Source of the DNA: Dioszegia crocea
Taxonomy: Eukaryota; Basidiomycota; Tremellomycetes; Tremellales; Bulleribasidiaceae
Assembly (NCBI GenBank): GCA_001600615.1
Contig: BCKK01000002.1
Location: 1,146,809-1,210,808 of the forward strand
Direction: 5' to 3'
Length of the DNA stretch: 64,000 nucleotides
The position numbers and the translations under genes are program-made. Shown here in pieces: positions 10,971 to 20,483 of the stretch (position 1 is the stretch's first letter; the number at the start of each line of letters is the position of its first letter). The notes beneath the pieces are model-generated. The model searched no databases, was not told the DNA's origin, and saw only the letters and a program-made list of their open reading frames with translations.

Positions 10971-12709
10971 ATGAACACCTCGGTACCGCGAATTGGAGGC
11001 TTGTATGCTCACACCAATGCCATCGCCAGCTCCTCCCGCGCTCCTCTTACTTCTGTGGCTCGAGGTAGAACGTGGTCTCCGCCCCAAAATCCCCGCACCG
11101 CTTTTCCTCTGGCCTTCAGCAGGCAATACGCGTCCGGTCCCACAGCTTCGGGCCCTGGCGCTGCCTCAACCTCATCGCAGCCTCCTCACATACCCGTCAT
11201 TCGGTCGTTAGCCCAGCTTAGGCGATGGAGGCGGATGGTAAGGGATCAGGGATTGGAAGTTGGGGTGGTGCCTACCGTACGTCTTTCTCGCTGAACTGCA
11301 GCCTCGCTCCTTATCACAATGAGCCTATTGCTGATGCGATTAGATGGGAGCGTTACATCAAGGACACCTTGACCTTGGTGAGCTTGATCTGTGGCGTGTG
11401 TGCTCCCATTGGGAGTCTAACCAGACGCTGCCGACTGGCTGCAATACACAGTGCTGACTACCCCAGTGAAGACATCTCTATCAAAGCATCCATTCACCGT
11501 CATGACCCTCTTCGTCAACCCTATGCAGGTACGTCGCAAGTCAATTCTCGCTATATGACATACTGAACTCTGCCAGTTCGCCCCCACTGAAGACCTCTCA
11601 GCCTACCCCCGGACACTCGAGCGAGATCTAGACCTTCTTCGTACACTCTTACCGGCTCACTCCGCATCGAGTGGGGGTGGACTACGCGGTCTAGGGATAT
11701 CAGAGAACGACTCTGTGCGACCTGCTGCGCCGGTACCTACGCCCGTCCCTGAGCCCGTGGCTCCCGTCGTCCCACGAACGCGCAGAGAGCGACCAAGGAG
11801 CGAAGACCACATCTTGCCGGTACATGAAGAAGTGCTGGGGAACCTCGTAGTGTTTAATCCGGGACCGGAGGTGATGTATCCCCTGAAAGGAGAATTACAA
11901 GATCTCGGCAAGAAGAGAGGAGTCGAGGTGGACGTCAAGGGCTGGGGAGATGTGATGGAGGGTGCATCGAGACGTGAGTCGTCAGTCCAGGTTGGCTCTT
12001 TGAGGGGGACTGACTTGGTACAGCCCAGTTCTTCAAAGGGGTTGCTACGGTTTGCACCAAGCTGTTCAATGCTGTCGAGGTGGGTGTTCCGACTTCTGCT
12101 GTCATGATGTCTCAGATACCCTACTGACGCCTCAGCCTGATCATGCCTACTTCGGCCAGAAAGACATCCAACAAGCTCTGCTTCTTAAAATCAGTCAGTC
12201 GGTGGCTTGTCTGCTTGACCTCAAGGCATTTCCAAGCTGACTACCCAGTGCTGACCGACCTTCTGCTCTCTCACCCACTACCCGAGAATCTACATATCCT
12301 CCCGACGACCCGAGACCCAGTTGATCACCTCGCTCTCTCGTCTCGAAACGCCTACCTCACACCTGCCGAACGCCAAATTGCCCCCATCCTCCATCGCGCC
12401 CTATCCGCCGCCCAGTCCCTCTTTGCCTCCATCTCCGAAGGAGCAGAGATGAGCGGTGAAGAGATGATATCCGCTGCTACGCAAGTCGTGCTAGATGAGC
12501 AGCAGAGAGTGCTGGATATGGGCGTGGACGTTGACTTGCGGATGGACTATTTTGAGGTCTTTGACAGGCACACGTTCGAGCCGGTCCGAGGACGGCTGGA
12601 GGGCGGGCGGGAAGTGGTCATTGCGGGTGCGGTATGGGTTGGGCGAACCCGGCTTATCGATAATTTGCTTTTGGGCTGGGGCGTGGAGAACTCGGCGTCC
12701 AGTGTGTGA
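10971..12709 (+). CDS. PAN6: Pantothenate synthetase (pantoate--beta-alanine ligase)
   Basis: Condenses D-pantoate with beta-alanine using ATP, the last step of vitamin B5 synthesis. After intron 1 the frame reads GVVPT|MGALHQGHLDLV, the family signature with the HIGH-like ATP motif. Then come KTSLSKHPFTVMTLFVNPMQ, FAPTEDLSAYPRTLERDLDL, VFNPGPEVMYP, MEGASR|PQFFKGVATVCTKLF, PDHAYFGQKDIQQALL and DPVDHLALSSRNAYLT, all expected blocks in order. Two features are unusual. About 60-80 extra residues (Ser/Gly- and Pro/Arg-rich) sit between LDLLRTLLP and LVVFNPGPEVMYP. The N-terminus is also Arg/Ser/Ala-rich with no acidic residue through the first 55 positions (RIGGLYAHTNAIASSSRAPL ... FSRQYASG), resembling a mitochondrial presequence. 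At least six introns are present. The end is TGA at 12707-12709. Confidence 0.93.
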
Positions 12710-13011
12710 GGTCGGTGATCGGTGGAGGGTCGGGTGGTCGTGATAGATGTACACAGGACCGTGCGCTCTTGTCAGATTTCGCTTAGAGCTTAGATTGACT
12801 TTCCCTGGTGTGCTGCTCAATCATAGCTGTACACTCTGCCTTGTCTCTCGACCCATAGCCTGCGCTGAAGCGTCAGCCGGCCAGCCAAAATACTAGTCCA
12901 GTGTACTGTATGAACAAACGGCCTCCGCGAACTTCGAATTTGCCGAAATCAACATTTGTGTAACACCTTTCAACATTCTCTTTGCTCTCTCGTGCTGGCC
13001 GACCCACCGCT
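12710..13011. promoter_or_regulatory. Short intergenic region upstream of MDM12
   Basis: About 300 bases between two plus-strand genes. It holds the 3' UTR of PAN6 and the promoter/leader of MDM12; nothing else seen. Confidence 0.4.
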
Positions 13012-14319
13012 ATGTCTCTCGATATAGACTGGTCCCTGTTGACCTCCTCCTCGGACTCCTCCTCCTCATCCCTATCCTCCACGCTCATCGCAACCCTCAA
13101 TGGCCACCTAGCATCCACATCTCGGCCCTCTTTCATCGGTCCCATCTCCATCGCCGCGTTTGAATTTGGATCCACGGCTCCATCAGTCGAAATCCGGGAC
13201 ATACGCGATGTCTGGCGCGCATTCGACGAGGACGATGATGAGGACGAGGATTACGATGATGAGGATGAGGACGATTATGATGAAGGGGAATGGGGTCGGG
13301 GAACGAGGGATCAATCGTTTGATTCTTACGAATCTCATGCCCTTCCGCGTATTGGCGCTGGGTCTCAGCGGGCCATAGGCGGTCCTAGGTGGAATGGGGA
13401 GATAGGAAGTGAGGAGGAGTATGAGATGCTCAGTCCTATACCAGGTGAAGACGTGGAAGGAGAGGATGGGGATATGGACGACAACGTCTCAGTGTATAGC
13501 GGGATGAGCCCCCGTTACTCTGTCGCTGCGCTGGGTGTGGGTATGGGCTTTGGTCTAGGAGCTGGGACACCTTCAGCCAGGCAAATGGGTAAACCGGGAT
13601 ACAAGCCTCGACAACCTTCATATCGCCCTTTCCCACATAGTCGCTCTATCTCTCAGTCCCTCTTTTCACCTCCACCTCTACCCCCCTCCGCCCGGCCACT
13701 CCCTTCACAGCCTACAATGCCCTCTCGTCGTCGGCCCCGACCACTATCTATGGCTACACATCAACAGCCTATTGGATCTACCCCTTCGTCCCTTCCCCCT
13801 TCCCCACCCACCCATCCGTCAGACAGTCCCAGCTCTTCCTCCGGCGCCCCCTCACTCCAGCTCCACGTTCACATCAGCCACGCATCCGATATCACCCTCA
13901 CCCTCCTCACGTCCCTACAGGTCAACTACCCCTCATCACTCTTCATGTCCCTGCCGCTCCGGCTGTGCGTTACCGGTCTTTCAATAGAGGCAGACATTGT
14001 GCTAGCCTATGCCAACTCGTCAGACCGGGATTCTGGACCAGAGACGCATGGCGGACAGCGGAATAGTAAGGCGCGGCGGAAGCGGGCGGGTGGGGACAAG
14101 GGCAAGGTGCATCTCTGCTTGACAGACGAAGATCCCTCGTCAGCCATTCCTGTTGGACAGCGCATCATACCCCATGTCCAGATAGAGTCGGAGATAGGGG
14201 ATGGGGATGTGCATGTGTTGCGGAATGTGGGCAAGGTCGAGAGGTTTATAGTAGAGGCGCTAAGGAAGACCATAGTAGACGAGTTGGTGTTTCCTAATTT
14301 TCATACGGTCGTTTTGTAG
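13012..14319 (+). CDS. MDM12: Mdm12, ERMES tether subunit
   Basis: Mdm12 is the SMP-domain subunit of the ER-mitochondria encounter structure, which moves phospholipids between the two membranes. The gene is a single exon of 435 codons. The start MSLDIDWSLLTSS is the typical Mdm12 N-terminus; an in-frame TTG 30 bases upstream was rejected. The SMP domain is split. The first part covers about residues 1-65 (FIGPISIAAFEFGSTAPSVE IRDI). A long acidic (DEDDDEDEDYDDEDEDDYDE) and Pro/Ser-rich insert follows. The fold resumes at LQLHVHISHASDITLTLLTS, SLFMSLPLRLCVTGLSIEAD and HVLRNVGKVERFIVEALRKT, ending VFPNFHTVVL. Insertions of this kind are common in basidiomycete Mdm12. The assignment is firm. 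Confidence 0.92.
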   Translation: MSLDIDWSLLTSSSDSSSSSLSSTLIATLNGHLASTSRPSFIGPISIAAFEFGSTAPSVEIRDIRDVWRAFDEDDDEDEDYDDEDEDDYDEGEWGRGTRDQSFDSYESHALPRIGAGSQRAIGGPRWNGEIGSEEEYEMLSPIPGEDVEGEDGDMDDNVSVYSGMSPRYSVAALGVGMGFGLGAGTPSARQMGKPGYKPRQPSYRPFPHSRSISQSLFSPPPLPPSARPLPSQPTMPSRRRPRPLSMATHQQPIGSTPSSLPPSPPTHPSDSPSSSSGAPSLQLHVHISHASDITLTLLTSLQVNYPSSLFMSLPLRLCVTGLSIEADIVLAYANSSDRDSGPETHGGQRNSKARRKRAGGDKGKVHLCLTDEDPSSAIPVGQRIIPHVQIESEIGDGDVHVLRNVGKVERFIVEALRKTIVDELVFPNFHTVVL

Positions 14320-14559: not shown

Positions 14560-17293
14560 CTATCTACGACGGGTCGTCCCGGACTTGTCCTTGCCCTGAG
14601 GCTTGGGCGCAGCCACCTTGTCCCTATTTCTGTTCTTGACATTCTGCGAGAGTCAGTGGTTGATCATAGAAAGACAGTAAGAAGGACATACGGCAGTAGT
14701 GTAGTAATTTGTAGCCTTCTTCTTGTTGGTGGTCATCCGCTTCTCCTTCTTTGTAGACTCGCCCTCTCCCTCATCATCGTGACCGGCAGTAGCGGCTGAT
14801 CGCTTCCGAGATGACGGAGCAACAGCCGCGGCAACTGCTTCCTCGTCTTCGTCGTCCTCATCATCCTCATCGCTCTCCTCAACAGCGACAGGGGCAGCCT
14901 TAGCCTTTGATTTCGATTTGATCGAAGCCGTCGACTTGGCAAGTAGAGTCTCGATCTTCGACGGGCCAGCGTCAGGGAAGACATCCTCCCATGCCAAATC
15001 GTCATCCGTTCCGGCCTCTTCCTCCTCGTCTTCGTCATCATCCGCACTCTCGCCGTCCTCTTCATCACCATCCTCCATATCCTCGTCGTCCTCTTCCTCA
15101 TCATCGATCTCCGCATCTTCCTCTTCTATCCGCCTGACGTCTTCCCCGCCAAACTTGGCACTAGTGATGACACCCTTCAAGCCCTGCGACACACCCTTGA
15201 CTCTCTTCTCGCCCAGCAGCTCACCCAGCCGCTTCTCCTGGCGCTCCATGACCTCCCTCTCGCCCTCGGTATCGCCCGATATTGGCTCTTCTCCACTAAC
15301 ACCCTCGCCCTCTCTTACTGGTGGTGCAACAAAGTATGGGATCTTGCCCCTGATCCAGTCGTTCAAGATCATCTTGGCCGCAGCCTCCTGATCCGCCTCA
15401 CCACCCTTCATCAATTTGCCCGACTTCCTTGCCAGGGCAGTGAGAAGCAGCACCGAGCCCTCCTCGCCATGCCAACCACCTTCGACCTTGTCGAGGCCGT
15501 ATGTTCGCTCCATGTACTCTGGGCGGACCCGCTCGAGAAGCGCCGGGATGTGTTCCGCTGGAGTAGCGAGGTTCTCCACTCGAACAACACCCTTCAGCAC
15601 AGTGACCGTGTCTGAGTCCCGGGCTGAGACGGGCACGACTCCGGGACAGTCGATGAGGTAGATACGGCGCATGAGGGTGATGTACTGCCAGATCTTGGTC
15701 TCTCCGGGGATGGGAGCGACGGTGCAGACCTTCTTCTTTTTGAGCGTGTTGATGATGGAAGATTTGCCGACGTTGGGGTAACCGATAAATCCGACAGAGA
15801 TCTGCTTCTTATCGGAGTGGAGGACGGAGAATTGGCGGAGAAGCTGGATGAGGGCACCTTTACCGAAGGAGTTGTTGATGGAGGCGTGGAAGGCAATAGT
15901 GGGGGCGGAGAGGGAGAGATGTTTGACCCATCGAGCCTGTGGTTTCAGCTTTGCCCCATGAAATCATGAAGTATCGATTAAGAGAAATGTGTGACTCGAA
16001 ACTAAGGGATCCGAAATCCGCATACTGACTGAGCACAGCTCGGATCCCAACTCTATCAAGTCTGCTGTGCACCACGGCGCCAGACCGATCAAGACGACCG
16101 GCCATACCTCCTAGTGTCGTACAGCCAAGACGGCCGACAACGAGCGGAGAGGCGTAAAGTTGTGAAATGCACTTGTTCTTCCACTCTCGTAACGGGCGCT
16201 AAGCGTGGAGGTGTGCCGAAGCGCGCAAAGAGCCCTGACTGGAGTGTGGGTTGAAGGAGGGAGGGAAGAGGGGGAGGAACAGGCTCAGACGAATAGGATA
16301 TCAACTCACAGTGACCCAAGTAGGAACCAAGTCCACCTTGTTAAGCACATACACCAGATGCTTGTGCGCCTTCTCCTTCCTCAGGTACTCCACAACAGGC
16401 TTGCACCTCGTGCCAAGCGGGTCTCGGGCGTCAAGCACGTGGATGACCACGTCGGACGAGTCGAGCACCTTGTACAGCTCTCCCCAGATACGGCGAGACG
16501 TCCCCTTGTGATAGATGGCCTCACGGACGAGAGGGACGGCGTTGTGATAGGCGTCGGCAGTGGCAGCCTCGTCGTGTCCTGATAGACCGAATGAGTCCTC
16601 TCCATCAGGGATGACGGCCGACTGGCCGAGCTCTTCCAGAGAGCCGAGGTCGAGACGGGGTCGCTTGCGCTGGGATTTGGGGCCGAAGGTGTTGGAGTAG
16701 GGCTCAGTCTCGACAATGTGGGGTTTCTGTTGGGTAAGCTTTGCAATAAATAGGTCAGCGACAGCTTACCTTGCCATCAGTCTTGCTCTCGTCCTCGAGC
16801 AGACCCATTGGTAGCTTGTTCCGCTTGAGCAGGACAGAGTAAGGGTCGGCCTTCTGGGCTGAGAGTGCCGTTCTGAAGTGGTCGAGGGCCGTTTGAGAGA
16901 TGACTCGGGTGTTGCCTGAGGACATCAGCCATGGTCTCGGTTGACTTAACGGCTTGTACTCACCGAACCACTTGCGATCAGGCATGACCCGTCCGGGCTT
17001 GATCAACTTCTCTCCGCCCTGATACGCCGCAGCCTTAGTGATCACACCGTCCTTGTCACGAACAGCCTTTCCACCATTCAACATCTTGACCATCGATGCA
17101 GCCTTGGAGTCTCGGTAGAAATTCTCTCCTGGACCATGGGTCAGCTACGATGCAAAATTTGCCTCGACGAGATAGACTCACCCTTGACTCTCTTCATGTT
17201 GAACTCGGGCTTGCTCGCCGAGCTGCCCTTCTTGGACTTGGTCTTGCCGAAGTCGGGGTTAGCCTTGCGGTCATGATTCTTCCCTTTCGCCAT
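14560..17293 (-). CDS. NOG2: Nog2/Nug2, nucleolar GTPase for 60S assembly
   Basis: Circularly permuted GTPase of pre-60S particles, required for late nuclear maturation and export. The ATG at 17293 opens [17 protein letters not shown]. The NGP1NT domain follows ([44 protein letters not shown]). G motifs occur in permuted order: NKVD ([13 protein letters not shown]), then GYPNVGKSS, then DCPG ([20 protein letters not shown]). The C-terminal part is long and acidic ([20 protein letters not shown]), then basic, ending [10 protein letters not shown]. Most introns are about 50 bases, but the one between VPTWVT and [10 protein letters not shown] is about 375 bases (about 15938-16312). Its size is explained by an H/ACA snoRNA (15987-16122). 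NOG2 diverges from the NUO9.5-like gene with only about 200 bases between them. Confidence 0.95.
15987..16122 (-). ncRNA. snR191: Intronic H/ACA box snoRNA, candidate snR191 orthologue
   Basis: Sits inside the long NOG2 intron, same strand. The 5' hairpin (16069-16122) has lower stem GUACGAC/GUGGUGC (one mismatch) and upper stem GGCCGGUC/GAUCGGUC (8 pairs, two G-U) with loop GUCUU. An H box ACAGCA follows at 16063-16068. The 3' hairpin (15993-16062) has lower stem GACUUGA/UCGAGUC (7 pairs, one G-U) and upper stem GGGAUCCGA/UCGGAUCCC (9 perfect pairs), then ACA (15990-15992) and three tail bases. The 3' pocket strands UAGAGUU and UUAGUU pair with the conserved 25S helix 69 sequence AACUA-UG-ACUCU, five pairs each side, leaving U and G unpaired. 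This places the guided base at the site equivalent to yeast Psi2260. In S. cerevisiae the snoRNA for Psi2258/Psi2260, snR191, is also encoded in the NOG2 intron. The 5' pocket's target was not identified. Confidence 0.88.
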
Positions 17294-18251: not shown

Positions 18252-20483
18252 CTACTTGACGCAAAAGAACCCCATGCCCTCTCTAGCTTCCGCAACCCGC
18301 TTCTCCATCTCCCGATCATCTTCGCCCAGCCACCGTTCTTCACCCTGTATCGCATCCGCGCTTCCGAGCTCTTTCACCAGCCGTTCCCATTTTTGCCTCT
18401 TGGCCGCCAATTGTAGCATCGGCTTAGGATCCGCGTGGCCTGTGACGAGGATGAAGGCAGTATTACGGGGAAGAGCGGCGTGTAGCTTCGCCAATCGCGT
18501 ATTGAGCGAGGCGAGGGCTGAGGGGAGCTGATCAACAGGTGCCGATGCAGGGTGAGAGTCAGGATTGCCGGAATCAGGCAGATTGGTCTCGCCATTCCCT
18601 ACTTTGTCAGCTGCTGAATCTGCCTTGATCTCGAGAGATCACTCACATCCTTGCACATTGGCCAATTCCATGAAGCGTCCAAAGACAAGATCGTGCTGGC
18701 CGACATGCTCAAGCATAGCACCCAAGATTTCATCGTCATTGTTACACTTCACGGCGATAGTGGCCTTGGCGCCGTGTCCTGACTTTGGATTCGAGTAGTC
18801 GCAGACAGCGGTGGTCTGGGCTGTCTTTGATTGGATTGTGCCATTGGCTGAAGGTTGAACGAATCGGTTGACACGCTCGAATATCGGTTCTGTCGTATCG
18901 TTGAACGCGCCAAAATCAGGTCCTGCGGCATCAGCACAACCCTTCAGAATCACTCACCGTTTGCGACCTTAAGCCTCAGCAGATCAACACAGGTCCTTGC
19001 GTCTTCCGCCGAATCGTGACCTCCCGCCTGATTTTGGATTTCCCTCCCTAGCCATTTATTGGCCAACCACTTCAAAGCAGGCTTGTACGGTGCGCCTCGT
19101 GGATGCTTGAACAGCAGCGCGGTATCGACGCAGAGCGGATGTCGGACCCGAAGGGCATTCAGATCGCACTCGAGCGAATGGCCAAGGAGGATTGTATATG
19201 GGGAGATGAGTGCGGTAGGCGAAGTGAGAAGGGCTTTTTGAATTGAGGAGACAGTATGGGTAGCGCCCGCGAGCCGTTCTTTGGTCATGCCAGACCACTT
19301 TGTTCGGTAGTCTATGACGGGGTCTGGAGGTTGGACGAGGTGGTCGAATATTGCTTCGCCTGTAGCGTAGTCTATTATGGATACCCGGGCCAACTCGTTG
19401 CCTTTGGTAGTTTCGACCTAGGCGTCAGCGGGGCTCTTGGGGTGAACATACCATTTCGCAATCCATAGCCAGGACGGGATATCTCCCATCTGTTGGTGCA
19501 GATCCTGCCTCTTTCGTCTCCGCCCAGCCTGGTAGCAACTTGCTGCTCGGTTGACTTCTCACATTCTCCACCTTCAACCCCTCGACTAGATCGTCCGGCA
19601 ACTTCTCATTCGCTCCTCCGGCCAACTTGGAAAATGCTTCAGGCACCTTGTCCAGTCCAGGTATCGTGACCCGATCGCCGGGAGATATGTATCCAGGAAG
19701 CTTATAGTCGTTGTCTAACATCTGATTGGGGGTGAGAAGATAAAGGAATGGCGGCGAGTCATCAGTCTTTGCCAATTCTGATAATCAGCTGGTGCTCTCG
19801 CTTTTTAGACCATAGACTCACCTGCTACTCGCTTATCTTCCTCTTCTTTCTTCTTCCGGATGCTCTCAGGTAATGGCGAGTTCAGAAGCGTGCTCATCAC
19901 ACTGAACATGCGCCGATTGTCTCCGGGCGCTCGGACAGGCACGCCATACGCGAACATCTTGGCGAGATAGGGGATCTGGTTCTTCGTCCGCTCAGCTGTG
20001 GGAGGATGAACTGGAGCAGTAGGGAAGGGGAGGTTGGCGGCGATGGGGATGTCGAGGCCCAAATGAGAAGGTAGAAGGCCCGGAACGAGAAGTAGAACGG
20101 TCCGCGTGATGTTTCCCTTATGCTTCAAAGAGTCAGCTCCGCAGCGGCATAGGGGGACGGAGACTTACCTCGGCAACAATCCAGTTGGGTTTCGGCCCAT
20201 CTGCAGCTAGAAACAAGACCAACTCCCTCACATGCGCCGTCCCAATCTTCCGACCCTGCCTGAATTGGCCTACGTCGAACGCAAATGAAGGACGATTCTT
20301 CTCCACTTTCCGTAACTTGCGCTTCTCGTCTCGCGTCAGAATCTTGGTGAACCCATCTGTGCCGTCTTCTACCGCGGTGGACCCGGCTGCTGAGGCGGAC
20401 GAGGGGGTGGAAGAAGAGGGGGTCGCTGGGTTGGGAGGTGGAGACTGCGGAAGCTCCCGCTTGGAGGGTACGACGGATGACAT
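18252..20483 (-). CDS. REX1: Rex1/Rnh70-type 3'-5' RNA exonuclease
   Basis: DEDDh exonuclease that trims 3' ends of 5S rRNA, tRNA and other RNAs in the nucleus. The start is MSSVVPSKRELPQSPPPNP at 20483; an upstream TTG-initiated reading was rejected. Catalytic motifs: Exo I YPVLAMDCEM, Exo II LLGHSLECDLNALRVRHPLC, Exo III GGHDSAEDARTCVDLLRLKV with the H. Upstream blocks HKGNITRTVLLLVPGLLPSH and NQIPYLAKMFAYGVPVRAPG are typical of the Rex1 N-terminal half. The C-terminal RNase H-distal region ends EGMGFFCVK. Roughly 660 residues with about five short introns. It diverges from MGS1, with about 375 bases between the starts. Confidence 0.92.

Follow-up and report, generated by a model that had tools for sequence, protein, structure and literature searches.

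A probable snR191 orthologue with two predicted helix 69 guides in a NOG2 intron of a basidiomycete

In yeast, the H/ACA snoRNA snR191 guides pseudouridylation of 25S rRNA at Ψ2258 and Ψ2260 (PMC8307265) and is hosted in an intron of NOG2, a description that was part of the original prediction for the locus studied here and that agrees with PMC8307265, PMC5033589, and PMC8476143. Orthologues of snR191 have been reported in all Saccharomycotina (PMC4937481), where the NOG2-snR191 pairing occurs with losses and relocations (PMC5033589 and PMC4202332), and an intronic homologue is listed for Trichophyton rubrum (PMC3890542). In 2021, a conserved NOG2 intron position together with intronic H/ACA snoRNAs (snR191 in yeast) was reported for eight intron-poor fungi, with the snoRNA prediction for Meira partly of low confidence, and the intron position was kept in 72% of the fungi examined in that study (PMC8476143). 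Here, we describe a 64 kb stretch of DNA (the window) that carries a NOG2 gene, and we conclude that its intron 4 very probably encodes an snR191 orthologue, an H/ACA RNA of about 267 nt with predicted guides for the U2258 and U2260 sites.

The predicted product of the host gene was 66 to 68% identical to proteins of Kwoniella, 68% to those of Tremella mesenterica and Naematelia, and mostly 62 to 67% to those of Cryptococcus (best 120 of 6671 matches), which makes a member of the Tremellales the probable source. It also matched PDB chains of yeast Nog2, with a best E value of 5.6e-174, and the alignment to yeast Nog2 was free of gaps across the intron 4 junction. The exon model, the PDB match, and the fungal NOG2 matches all agree with NOG2 as the host gene, as originally proposed, and the snoRNA lies inside a NOG2 intron, as snR191 does in yeast. 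The same intron had been singled out as about seven times longer than its neighbors, and this was borne out by the lengths (373 nt for intron 4; 53, 48, 43, and 48 nt for the other four).

Three other frames were seen around the host gene. Adjoining NOG2, an exon-like frame at 18950-19417 on the minus strand weakly resembled the Pfam Exonuclease family (RNase_T), at 22.1 bits (E 2.5e-4) versus a cut-off of 24, which we take to be perhaps part of a multi-exon gene for a Rex-type RNA exonuclease. On the plus strand, the frame at 12964-14319 matched the mitochondrial morphology family MMM1 of Pfam at 34.3 bits (E 2e-8) versus a cut-off of 21.9 and could, we presume, encode Mdm12 or a similar ERMES subunit, while that at 12128-12709 matched pantoate-beta-alanine ligase (E 1e-20), an ordinary vitamin-biosynthesis gene.

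In its sequence and predicted fold, the intronic RNA has the features of an H/ACA snoRNA, with two pocketed hairpins, an H box, and an ACA located 3 nt from the predicted 3' end (Table 1). The original proposal of an H/ACA snoRNA homologous to snR191 in a basidiomycete is upheld, with boxes, guides, and NOG2 host in agreement.

Table 1. Host gene, host intron, and elements of the predicted snoRNA (positions in the window)
Feature	Positions	Strand	Basis or remark
Host gene NOG2 (nucleolar GTP-binding protein 2), 722 aa encoded in six exons	14560..17293	minus	Hand splicing on GT-AG borders
NOG2 intron 4, 373 nt, GTGAGT...CCACAG, phase 0, codons 280/281 (PTWVT|ARWVKH)	15937..16309	minus	Exon-intron model and protein alignment
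snR191-type H/ACA snoRNA, ~267 nt	15985..16251	minus	Predicted; ends from Rfam alignment
5' hairpin, guide pocket AGUCA (16240-16236) / GUUAC (16193-16189)	16180..16251	minus	Fold and guide match to GUAAC-UA-UGACU (U2258 site)
H box AGAACA (ANANNA)	16174..16179	minus	14 nt from start of GUUAC
Middle domain, closing stem and two inner hairpins	16067..16172	minus	Fold; lies on the multibranched middle of the Rfam model, partly unaligned
Second ANANNA motif, ACAGCA, before 3' hairpin	16063..16068	minus	H box of the original prediction; first two bases paired in MFE fold
3' hairpin, guide pocket AGAGU (16054-16050) / UAGUU (16004-16000), with ACA box 15990-15988	15988..16062	minus	Complementary to AACUA-UG-ACUCU (U2260 site)
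Three-base tail UUU after ACA box	15985..15987	minus	Sequence; end of Rfam alignment

Both pockets are complementary to helix 69, with five pairs on each side. In the 5' hairpin, AGUCA and GUUAC pair with the UGACU and GUAAC that flank UA at the U2258 site, and in the 3' hairpin, AGAGU and UAGUU pair with the ACUCU and AACUA that flank UG at the U2260 site. Scored as complementarity against yeast letters, the 5' pocket fits the first site and the 3' pocket the second, which is the arrangement expected of snR191. The letters of both sites are those of yeast; they were used because no 25S rRNA turned up in the 20.6 Mb assembly, either with two patterns conserved in helix 69 or with a 178-nt yeast DNA query, the empty result of the latter carrying no weight unless paired with a positive control. 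The rDNA may be unassembled, or may have been skipped by this search. The pairing of the 3' pocket with AACUA-UG-ACUCU, and its reading as the guide for the U2260 equivalent, had been predicted correctly. The U2258 site had also been said to lack a match in the 5' pocket, the target of which was left open; this was mistaken because the wrong hairpin had been examined, and the true upstream pocket forms five plus five pairs with that site.

In H/ACA snoRNAs, the guide pocket lies about 14 to 16 nt upstream of the H or ACA box. Both pockets show this spacing, with GUUAC starting 14 nt before AGAACA and UAGUU starting 14 nt before ACA. An ACA box followed by a three-base tail had been part of the original prediction and both are present, but an end at 15987 fits an ACA two bases further upstream, 12 nt from the pocket; counted from the 3' pocket, the 14-nt spacing leads to the ACA at 15990-15988, and its UUU tail ends at 15985.

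The Rfam covariance model of snR191, RF01263, aligned over its full length (1-273) to 16251-15985 on the minus strand, with 23.7 bits and an E value of 0.0029 in a search of 701 bases. A scan of 4227 families against these bases gave 3 matches with E values of 10 or less, of which RF01263 was the best; its E value is multiplied over the 4227 families and corresponds arithmetically to about 7e-7 for RF01263 by itself. The whole window, scanned with a limit of E 3, also gave 3 matches; RF01263 was again the best of them, with an E value of 0.27, and the score alone is therefore not convincing. The curated gathering score of the family is 46 bits, and despite the end-to-end alignment the match, at 23.7 bits, falls below this inclusion rule; a scan at gathering thresholds therefore reports nothing here, and no family passed in the window. 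The covariance search that had been proposed as a check thus succeeded in alignment but fell short in score. Since the host, the guides, and the layout fit but the threshold is not reached, we name the RNA a probable snR191 orthologue and do not list it as a member of RF01263. A search of the genome itself with RF01263, in which 28 of 370 candidates were scored, did not report the snoRNA. The threshold misses this copy, and genome annotations based on Rfam only may therefore lack such genes. The other sub-threshold Rfam matches, NEAT1_2, TP73-AS1, flavi_FSE, and SMAD5-AS1_2 in the window and SOX2OT_exon3 in two overlapping loci (L003 and L011), were taken as chance.

Folded without constraints, the 267 nt gave an MFE structure in three parts, the 5' and 3' hairpins with a branched domain between them (z -2.28; 2 of 200 shuffles as low), with both guides placed in internal loops. 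The 3' hairpin folded separately had a z score of -3.38, with none of 200 shuffles as stable; its pocket has one unpaired U per side between the guide and the upper stem in the MFE fold. Stability was only moderate for the 5' hairpin (z -2.03; 10 of 200 shuffles as stable), and the centroid of the whole RNA is without the lower stem of this hairpin. For the middle domain, which might conceivably be a third guide unit, the separate fold gave a z score of -1.79, and 7 of 200 shuffles were as stable.

The locus was originally read as a compact, 136-nt H/ACA snoRNA at 15987-16122, with two hairpins, ACAGCA as its H box, a helix 69 match for the 3' pocket only, and an open 5' target. We regard this version as highly improbable. 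The motif ACAGCA is present at 16068-16063 on the minus strand, fits ANANNA, and stands directly before the 3' hairpin; the 5' hairpin, however, has a box of its own, AGAACA at 16179-16174. The 3' hairpin stands as described, but the supposed 5' hairpin is the second arm of the middle domain, which lies between the two ANANNA motifs and has a closing stem that reaches back to 16172. The 136-nt interval thus consists of the 3' hairpin and about half of the middle domain. It does fold well (z -2.62; 2 of 200 shuffles as low), and on the plus strand, which is the wrong one, the z score was -0.49. Against the compact version, it omits the upstream hairpin, whose guide forms five plus five pairs at the U2258 site and has a box 14 nt away, and the Rfam model covers 15985-16251 from end to end, making the RNA about twice as long as had been proposed. 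In addition, yeast snR191 is 274 nt long (PMC12389098).

A second alternative to the snR191 orthologue, somewhat less probable still, is that the intron holds a decayed, non-functional remnant of snR191, in which the guides persist by chance or through slow decay. The sub-threshold Rfam score and a 5' hairpin of modest stability would be compatible with such a remnant. Yet the single genomic copy that was found has kept all 20 guide bases, the spacing to each of the two boxes, and a clean 3' hairpin, and neutral decay would not be expected to spare just the functional positions.

The question of chance was addressed with shuffled sequences and genome-wide pattern counts. Among 20,000 shuffled introns of unchanged dinucleotide composition, none had the strict 5' unit, the strict 3' unit occurred 10 times, and the two together in order were never seen; with relaxed, four-pair units, the counts were 88, 236, and 0, respectively. 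Across the 64 kb window, the minus strand has 3 relaxed 5' units and 2 relaxed 3' units and the plus strand has none; they form one pair, which is the snoRNA site. The exact guide patterns had 10 and 11 matches in the 20.6 Mb genome, against 13 and 34 for the reversed controls, and both were found together only at the site in NOG2 intron 4. Loci of about 3 kb were assigned to 16 of these 21 matches, corresponding to 14 separate places (L003 overlaps L011, and L014 overlaps L015). Among the 16 loci, only L003 and L011, which both cover the snoRNA, gave an snR191 match when E values of up to 5 were admitted (E 0.2 for each of the two). A DNA search found a single copy of the snoRNA in the genome. 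A pattern search for orthologous NOG2 introns in genome contigs matched 11 stretches, of which none was confirmed, and the single pattern match obtained in viral contigs was not confirmed either. A structured intron with fortuitous rRNA complementarity, for which it speaks that each single guide pattern is no commoner than its reversed control, is very unlikely already on the combined features and retains a vanishingly small probability, given that the two patterns co-occur only in intron 4, that none of 20,000 shuffles had both, that NOG2 is the known snR191 host, and that the Rfam alignment is of full length.

By analogy with the snR191 family, the processing, protein binding, and modification activity of the RNA can be outlined. 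Once the NOG2 pre-mRNA is spliced, the H/ACA proteins (Cbf5, Nop10, Gar1, and Nhp2) would bind the two hairpins and shield the ~267-nt RNA from exonucleolytic attack. Each hairpin would then guide the pseudouridylation of one base of 25S rRNA, namely the equivalent of yeast U2258 for the 5' hairpin and that of U2260 for the 3' hairpin. Both predicted targets belong to helix 69, which lies at the A-site subunit bridge.

A further question is why the pairing of NOG2 and snR191 has been kept across many fungi. In cryo-EM structures of late nuclear pre-60S particles, Nog2 disrupts H69, and the C terminus of Rpf2 lies between Nog2 and H69 (PMC6393466 and PMC7385084). Since Nog2 docks at H69 and displaces it, and snR191 guides the modification of H69, host protein and guest RNA act on one helix, and it could be speculated that the pairing is maintained for this reason. 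We consider this explanation doubtful, the odds being clearly against it, although the overlap between the modified and the displaced helix makes it a testable one. If true, a single transcript would couple helix 69 modification to helix 69 remodeling, a link going beyond a shared role in ribosome biogenesis. We found no paper joining snR191, Nog2, and H69 in a literature search outside of which most subscription papers lay. In synthetic yeast, removal of the NOG2 intron costs fitness while NOG2 expression is unchanged, and the linear intron is noted to build up in stressed cells (PMC10667330). The intron is thereby shown to matter in yeast, but this alone gives coupling no support. Moreover, snR191 has a transcript of its own in Candida parapsilosis and C. 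orthopsilosis (PMC5033589), lies outside NOG2 in Kazachstania africana, and has been lost from Naumovozyma dairenensis (PMC4202332); coupling is therefore not essential everywhere.

Taken as a whole, the RNA of intron 4 is a well-formed, ordinary, probable snR191 orthologue. It shares with the snR191 of S. cerevisiae and other Ascomycota (RF01263) the NOG2 intron as host and the two helix 69 guides for U2258 and U2260, and its predicted size is 267 nt compared to 274 nt for yeast snR191. The order of elements is also common to the RNA and the RF01263 consensus, i.e., hairpin, ANANNA, middle domain, ANANNA, hairpin, and ACA; as read from the consensus line, the two ANANNA motifs of the family are AGAUUA and AGAGCA. 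Unlike RF01263, the middle domain aligns only in part, and the score is about half of the threshold (23.7 versus 46 bits). In vertebrates, U19/SNORA74, which is unusually long and is found in other host genes, is said to guide the equivalent two pseudouridines. Among basidiomycetes, Ustilago, Pseudozyma, Malassezia, and Meira belong to the Ustilaginomycotina. H/ACA RNAs in the NOG2 intron have been reported for U. maydis, P. hubeiensis, M. sympodialis, and Meira miltonrushii (PMC8476143), and the present RNA resembles these in host and RNA class; unlike them, it comes from a probable member of the Tremellales. The original proposal that the pairing predates the split of ascomycetes and basidiomycetes agrees with this evidence, but it is not new, because NOG2 intron snoRNAs from both groups are already reported in the same study. 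The locus is in keeping with an ancient NOG2-snR191 pairing in the Dikarya, to which it adds a probable Tremellales case that has kept the pair of helix 69 guides as well as snR191's unusual layout in three parts.
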